Shown: piece by piece, positions 33,655 through 34,314 of the stretch
Numbering within the stretch: the first letter of the stretch is position 1
Layout of the letters: every line of letters begins with the position of its first letter
Assembly (NCBI GenBank): GCA_005882045.1
Contig: VBHO01000012.1
Span: 386-35,343 of the forward strand
Length of the DNA: 34,958 nucleotides
Source: Chloroflexota bacterium
GTDB lineage: Bacteria > Chloroflexota > Dormibacteria > CF-121
Reading direction: 5' to 3'
Position numbers and translations under genes: made by a program
The notes under the pieces: generated by a model
Databases searched by the model: none
Seen by the model: the letters and a program-made list of their open reading frames with translations, nothing else
What the model was told of the DNA's origin: nothing

Positions 33655-34314
33655 GTGCCCACTTCCGTGCGCATCTACTCCGACTACGTCTGACCCTTCT
33701 GCTATATCGACTCGGTCGGGGTCGAACGCCTGGAGCGGGAATACGACGTCGAGATCGAATGGGTGCCCTTCGAGCTGCACCCCGAGATCCCGCCCGAAGG
33801 GCGGCCGCGCAACGAGGTCGTGCCGGCGGCGTACCTGGCCGGGGCCGAGGAGGGGGTGAATCGGCTGGCCGCTACCGTTGGCCTGGAGCTCAAACTGCAC
33901 GAGCGGCTGATCAACTCCCGTCCCGCCCTGCAGGCCGCGGAATTCGCGCGGGAGCAGGGGCGCTTCGATCCCATGCACCACGCACTGCTCCGCACTTACT
34001 GGGACGAGGGTAGGGACGTGTCCGATATCGCCGTCCTCCGCGAGGTCGCCTCGAAGGCTGGTGTCGACGTCCCGGAAATGGAGGCAGCAATCGCGGCTGA
34101 CCGATTCGGCGATTACCTCGACGCCCGGCGCGCCGAGGCCGAGGAGTTGGGCATCAACGGCATCCCAGCCCATGTCATCGCCGACCGCTACCTCGTGATG
34201 GGAGCCCAGCCGTATGACCTGTTTGAGCGCGTGATGGCCAAAGTCGGCGTGCCCAAACGGGCAGGCGATTCTTTTCCCTCCCCCCTTGCGGGGGAGGGTC
34301 AGGGTGGGGGGTGA
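33655..34314 (+). CDS. FrnE/DsbA-family thioredoxin-fold oxidoreductase with in-frame TGA (candidate selenocysteine, UPFC active site)
   Basis: GTG start, VPTSVRIYSDYV-[TGA 33691-33693]-PFCYIDSVGVERLEREYDVEIEWVPFELHPEIPPEG...INGIPAHVIADRYLVMGAQPYDLF; same frame before and after TGA. Confidence 0.75.
33691..33725 (+). promoter_or_regulatory. Candidate bacterial SECIS element
   Basis: UGA, 13 nt, then UCGACUC (33707-33713) / loop GGUCG (33714-33718) / GGGUCGA (33719-33725), 7-bp stem with one G-U pair. Confidence 0.62.

Follow-up and report, generated by a model that had tools for sequence, protein, structure and literature searches.

A predicted bacterial SECIS element and selenocysteine codon in a DsbA/FrnE-type oxidoreductase gene of Chloroflexota

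Bacterial SECIS elements and DsbA-like selenoproteins with a UxxC active site are both established. The DsbA-like selenoprotein of form 1 (PF01323, UxxC; PMC13188914) was first reported in PMC1088965 and also appears in PMC1794560; reported members come from Deltaproteobacteria, Clostridia and marine samples (PMC13188914, PMC1088965, PMC1794560). Three selenoprotein families are listed for Chloroflexi (PMC1794560), and a search mostly outside the subscription literature yielded no paper describing a DsbA-like selenoprotein group in Chloroflexota. Published rules for the bacterial SECIS (bSECISearch model; PMC13188914) comprise a stem of 4–16 bp, a loop of 3–9 nt with at least one G in its first two positions, a distance of 16–37 nt from UGA to loop and an energy of −7.5 kcal/mol or lower. 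In the type case, Escherichia coli fdhF, the loop GGUCU begins 18 nt after UGA, and the lower stem contains a bulged U. Among proteins of solved structure, the closest by sequence to the one discussed here is FrnE of Deinococcus radiodurans (PDB 5cnw, 5cp1); many FrnE proteins carry a C-terminal CxxxxC motif, and some are without it (PMC8945050).

The locus lies in a 34,958-nt stretch of Chloroflexota DNA, the whole of which is referred to below as the window. A gene on the forward strand (33655–34314; start GTG at 33655, stop TGA at 34312–34314) encodes a predicted Sec-containing thiol-disulfide oxidoreductase of the DsbA/FrnE type, 219 residues long with an in-frame UGA read through at residue 13. 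There are homologues that share both the start and this TGA, and many relatives begin with ATG. In an alignment of 152 homologues, the UGA (33691–33693, forward strand) takes the place of the first cysteine of CxxC, giving U-P-F-C as the predicted active site; the second cysteine of the motif (TGC, 33700–33702, forward strand) is the sole one remaining in the translation. The protein matches PF01323 (DSBA, E = 7.9e-34), and its best solved relatives, the FrnE entries 5cnw and 5cp1, align over residues 5–198 (E = 4.4e-24), so that a DsbA-type thioredoxin fold is expected. It differs from FrnE in having Sec for the first Cys, in being about 40 residues shorter and in lacking the C-terminal CxxxxC. 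With the form 1 selenoproteins, compared by description, it has in common PF01323, UxxC and a downstream SECIS. Visual inspection shows no obvious signal peptide, so the protein is probably cytoplasmic, like FrnE (PMC8945050).

Downstream of the UGA, a 5′ stem arm UCGACUC (33707–33713), an apical loop GGUCG (33714–33718; 5 nt, starting 20 nt after UGA) and a 3′ stem arm GGGUCGA (33719–33725), all on the forward strand, form seven pairs (U-A, C-G, G-C, A-U, C-G, U-G and C-G). An earlier note on this DNA had described this stem and loop, and its letters and coordinates are all correct; the likeness to fdhF that it drew, a GGUC loop at nearly the same distance, also agrees with the E. coli sequence. 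Compared with the bacterial consensus and fdhF, the window element has a plain stem of 7 bp capped by a loop of 5 nt, and it conforms to the published rules in loop length, stem length, the initial GG, distance and energy (−9.2 kcal/mol for the isolated hairpin 33707–33725). The earlier note had also proposed folding the 58 nt of 33688–33745. Here the hairpin does dominate (probability 0.99), but the fold is no better than expected from shuffled sequences (z = −0.81; 43/200 shuffles equally good), and in four other choices of window the probability falls to 0.09–0.33, alternative folds of the single sequence beating the hairpin in some of them. Single-sequence minimum free energy was dropped as evidence for or against a SECIS. 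The two strands of the window together contain 966 TGAs, of which 95 (about 10%) precede a hairpin satisfying the loose bSECIS rules and only 5 precede the strict form (a perfect 7-bp stem with a 5-nt loop starting with GG at 16–37 nt); measured against synonymous recodings of the window gene alone, the hairpin is not extreme (p 0.115). An Rfam scan of the whole window gave no match, which we do not count against a SECIS. By itself, without relatives, the hairpin is weak evidence, barely above chance. The earlier note had held that the coincidence of UGA and hairpin strengthens the Sec reading: that reading is upheld by what follows, but the single-sequence hairpin cannot carry the argument.

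Homologues were collected through searches of relatives, the class, the phylum and GTDB contigs together with fetched stretches, giving 152 loci with a readable site, some of them the same gene obtained through two collections. The codon aligned to 33691–33693 is TGA in 104, TGC or TGT in 47 and AGT (Ser) in one. TGA forms belong mostly to Chloroflexota, where they are spread over many families; outside the phylum, TGA was also seen in a MAG of Isosphaeraceae and in another of Actinobacteria. Lokiarchaeal homologues, considered as a lead towards horizontal transfer, were rejected, as they have Cys at the site and no SECIS-like hairpin. The tree contains at least seven supported switches between Sec and Cys; a sign test on independent Sec/Cys pairs has low power with seven supported pairs (median p 0.25). 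One TGC homologue (L166) is nested among TGA genes and retains the peptide YVGQGVV with only 4/7 pairs, while its TGA neighbour (L165) has 7/7. The natural reading is a reversion from Sec to Cys followed by loss of the stem, a direction that we infer on an unrooted tree. TGA is also found in two FrnE homologues of the KRRFE type (L145 and L151) within an otherwise Cys clade, their best hairpin lying outside the usual distance; these are perhaps a separate gain of Sec.

Because loci were duplicated between collections, stem statistics are based on distinct sequences (97 TGA, 47 non-TGA). All seven pairs in the register of the window gene are formed by 59/97 TGA sequences and 0/47 non-TGA sequences (Fisher p 1e-14, kinship ignored), which, together with the covariation described below, is the pattern of a bacterial SECIS: a structure kept with UGA and absent without it. 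TGA sequences average 6.08 pairs in register against a synonymous-codon expectation of 4.75, while non-TGA sequences average 4.00 against 3.97. Covariation among TGA homologues, which the earlier note had proposed to look for, was found: the two arms of the stem covary, the two-sided score being 0.124 in TGA rows compared with 0.027 after shuffling (maximum 0.042 of 500) and 0.052 for the best slid register, and 0.033 in non-TGA rows compared with 0.034 after shuffling. These shuffles ignore relatedness, for which a tree-based count of changes allows in part. Compensatory changes are seen at pairs 4, 5, 6 and 7. All six standard pair types occur at pair 6, for which a tree made from the protein sequence downstream of the hairpin requires no fewer than 16 changes. 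The best-hairpin energy is −8.9 kcal/mol in TGA homologues versus −3.2 in their synonymous recodings, and −2.4 versus −2.3 in non-TGA homologues. Among 63 homologues that form the complete stem of seven pairs, this hairpin is the prevailing fold (mean probability 0.86–0.91).

Loop position 2 is G in every homologue forming at least 6/7 pairs in register, whereas the first loop base is C in seven homologues (loops CGUGC and CGUGG). The G at position 2 appears to be the fixed one across these sequences, and the first loop G not essential. This partly bears out the expectation in the earlier note of G residues at the start of the loop, which stands for the second position and not for the first; TGA homologues without a conserved loop, named there as an outcome that would speak against a SECIS, are not what we observed in this register. 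The published rules (PMC13188914) are passed by 79/97 Sec rows and 7/47 other rows. Where a TGA gene does not fit the window register, an alternative hairpin is often found at a permitted distance, such as the shifted CGAGUCC-GGUCU-GGACUCG at 24 nt in L201, a GUC loop at 22 nt in L162 and L196 or a GGUC loop at 32 nt in L183. The 18 Sec rows failing the rules include a Ktedonobacterales-like group with short weak hairpins, and some of these genes may rely on other SECIS forms.

The genome possesses SelA, SelB and SelD, the combination used as a criterion for Sec decoding. SelB, encoded on contig C136, adjoins SelA and has winged-helix domains; the match between a SelB and its SECIS can be specific to the species. 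SelD itself contains a UGA (L013, TGA at 1531–1533), followed at 32 nt by the hairpin UGGCUCA-GGUCU-UGAGCCA, and two FdhA-like genes (L222 and L223) have TGA at the expected site QAR[IV]UH and, 18 nt after it, the loops GGUCU and AGUUU; each of these three UGAs thus precedes a 5-nt-loop hairpin comparable to that of the window. Across the phylum, SelA was detected in 68/69 genomes with the TGA gene (tallied by hand from two tables) and in 322/399 overall (Fisher p 2.7e-6, kinship ignored). The sole genome with the TGA gene and no SelA (G029) has a tRNA-Sec candidate (L050).

Complete tRNA-Sec genes with a UCA anticodon are present in relatives of the genus and family, but a complete copy was not found in the assembled contigs of this genome: a search of it with RF01852 returned only ordinary tRNAs, and none was seen on the SelA/SelB contig or in the fetched stretch around SelD. 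Contig C37 ends about 50 nt before the site of the tRNA-Sec gene in the nearest relative, and contig C28 carries, in another context, a 68-nt 3′ part of tRNA-Sec (L126; positions 677–744) whose similarity breaks off just past the anticodon loop. The absence is likely due to an assembly break at a repeated tRNA-Sec copy. The fragment on C28 is possibly an integration scar or an assembly chimera; none of the ORFs of this contig, which include a rhodanese-like one, looked like an integrase.

With very high confidence, we propose that 33707–33725 is a bacterial SECIS and that the UGA is read as Sec, giving an oxidoreductase of the DsbA/FrnE type whose active site is U-P-F-C. When the ribosome arrives at 33691–33693, SelB carrying Sec-tRNA-Sec and GTP would grip the loop about 20 nt downstream, and selenocysteine would be placed at UGA instead of termination; the product would be a 219-residue, apparently cytoplasmic oxidoreductase. 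SelB binding, the actual insertion of Sec and the redox role of the enzyme are what we infer from sequence. The weight of the argument rests on the TGA/Cys exchange, the covariation and the Sec machinery, which are read directly from the DNA along with the hairpin and the other UGA-plus-hairpin genes.

The TGA could instead have arisen by nonsense mutation, or as an error of sequencing, in a Cys gene undergoing decay, with the hairpin there by chance; this would be compatible with the frequency of loose-rule hairpins after window TGAs. Nevertheless, the same TGA recurs in 104 homologues from several families within the phylum and from outside it, the frame stays open downstream and the stem covaries; conservation of TGA with compensatory changes is exactly what such decay should not produce, and we assign this explanation a negligible probability. 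Genome-wide reassignment of UGA, for example to Trp or Gly, would make a SECIS needless and would account for an in-frame TGA being tolerated here, but the Sec-DsbA frame itself ends at TGA 34312 and hrcA at TGA 32561, in the genes examined those TGAs that are read through coincide with catalytic Cys/Sec positions of established selenoprotein families, and SelA, SelB and SelD are all encoded in the genome; we regard reassignment as extremely improbable.

It could also be argued that the hairpin arises as no more than a side effect of peptide conservation (YIDSV/YVGQG) and a GC-rich choice of codons, with UGA read independently of it. The peptide past UxxC is indeed conserved within clades, and the comparison of the window gene alone with its synonymous recodings fits such a view. 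Against it, TGA homologues fold far more stably than their recodings whereas Cys homologues equal theirs, pair 6 has changed repeatedly through all pair types, and other clades combine different peptides with a shifted hairpin, as in L201; we therefore consider this by-product explanation very unlikely.

If the SECIS reading is right, an apparent stop at 33691 conceals a full selenoenzyme, DsbA/FrnE-type selenoproteins are widespread in Chloroflexota, and a soil bacterium of this phylum equips a thiol-disulfide enzyme with selenium at its active site. What appears new is the breadth of this DsbA-like selenoprotein and its Sec/Cys switching within the phylum, as well as the conservation of a CIRCE next to the gene within the family of the window (f1). 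The 104 TGA and 47 Cys homologues, with their repeated supported Sec/Cys changes, offer a natural experiment on a coding-region SECIS: how it constrains its host protein and how it decays after a change from Sec to Cys.

The divergent neighbour of the Sec gene is an ORF on the reverse strand (32561–33598, ending at TGA 32561–32563) that we take to be hrcA, a putative heat-shock repressor gene, judging by the sequence itself, the adjacent CIRCE and the grpE/dnaJ-like ORFs nearby. Between the two genes lies the CIRCE, or HrcA operator (TTGGCAGTC-N9-GAGTGCTAA, 33600–33626, two mismatches); the window has no second site of this kind when up to four mismatches are allowed. Adjacency of hrcA to the Sec-DsbA gene is conserved in f1, and CIRCE occurs at the same place in the hrcA-linked f1 relatives and is absent upstream of homologues elsewhere. 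The element very probably serves hrcA. Given the divergent arrangement with a conserved CIRCE between, we speculate that the selenoenzyme may also come under control of the HrcA repressor, a doubtful but possible arrangement that would tie selenium-based thiol chemistry to protein-folding stress; we met no such link in the literature, without a dedicated search for it.

At its 3′ end (approximately 34275–34312), the Sec-DsbA gene enters a G/C-rich interspersed repeat present in dozens of copies in the genome (about 38 further matches). Similarity to relatives stops before this repeat, so the C-terminus of the predicted protein has probably been lengthened by it.
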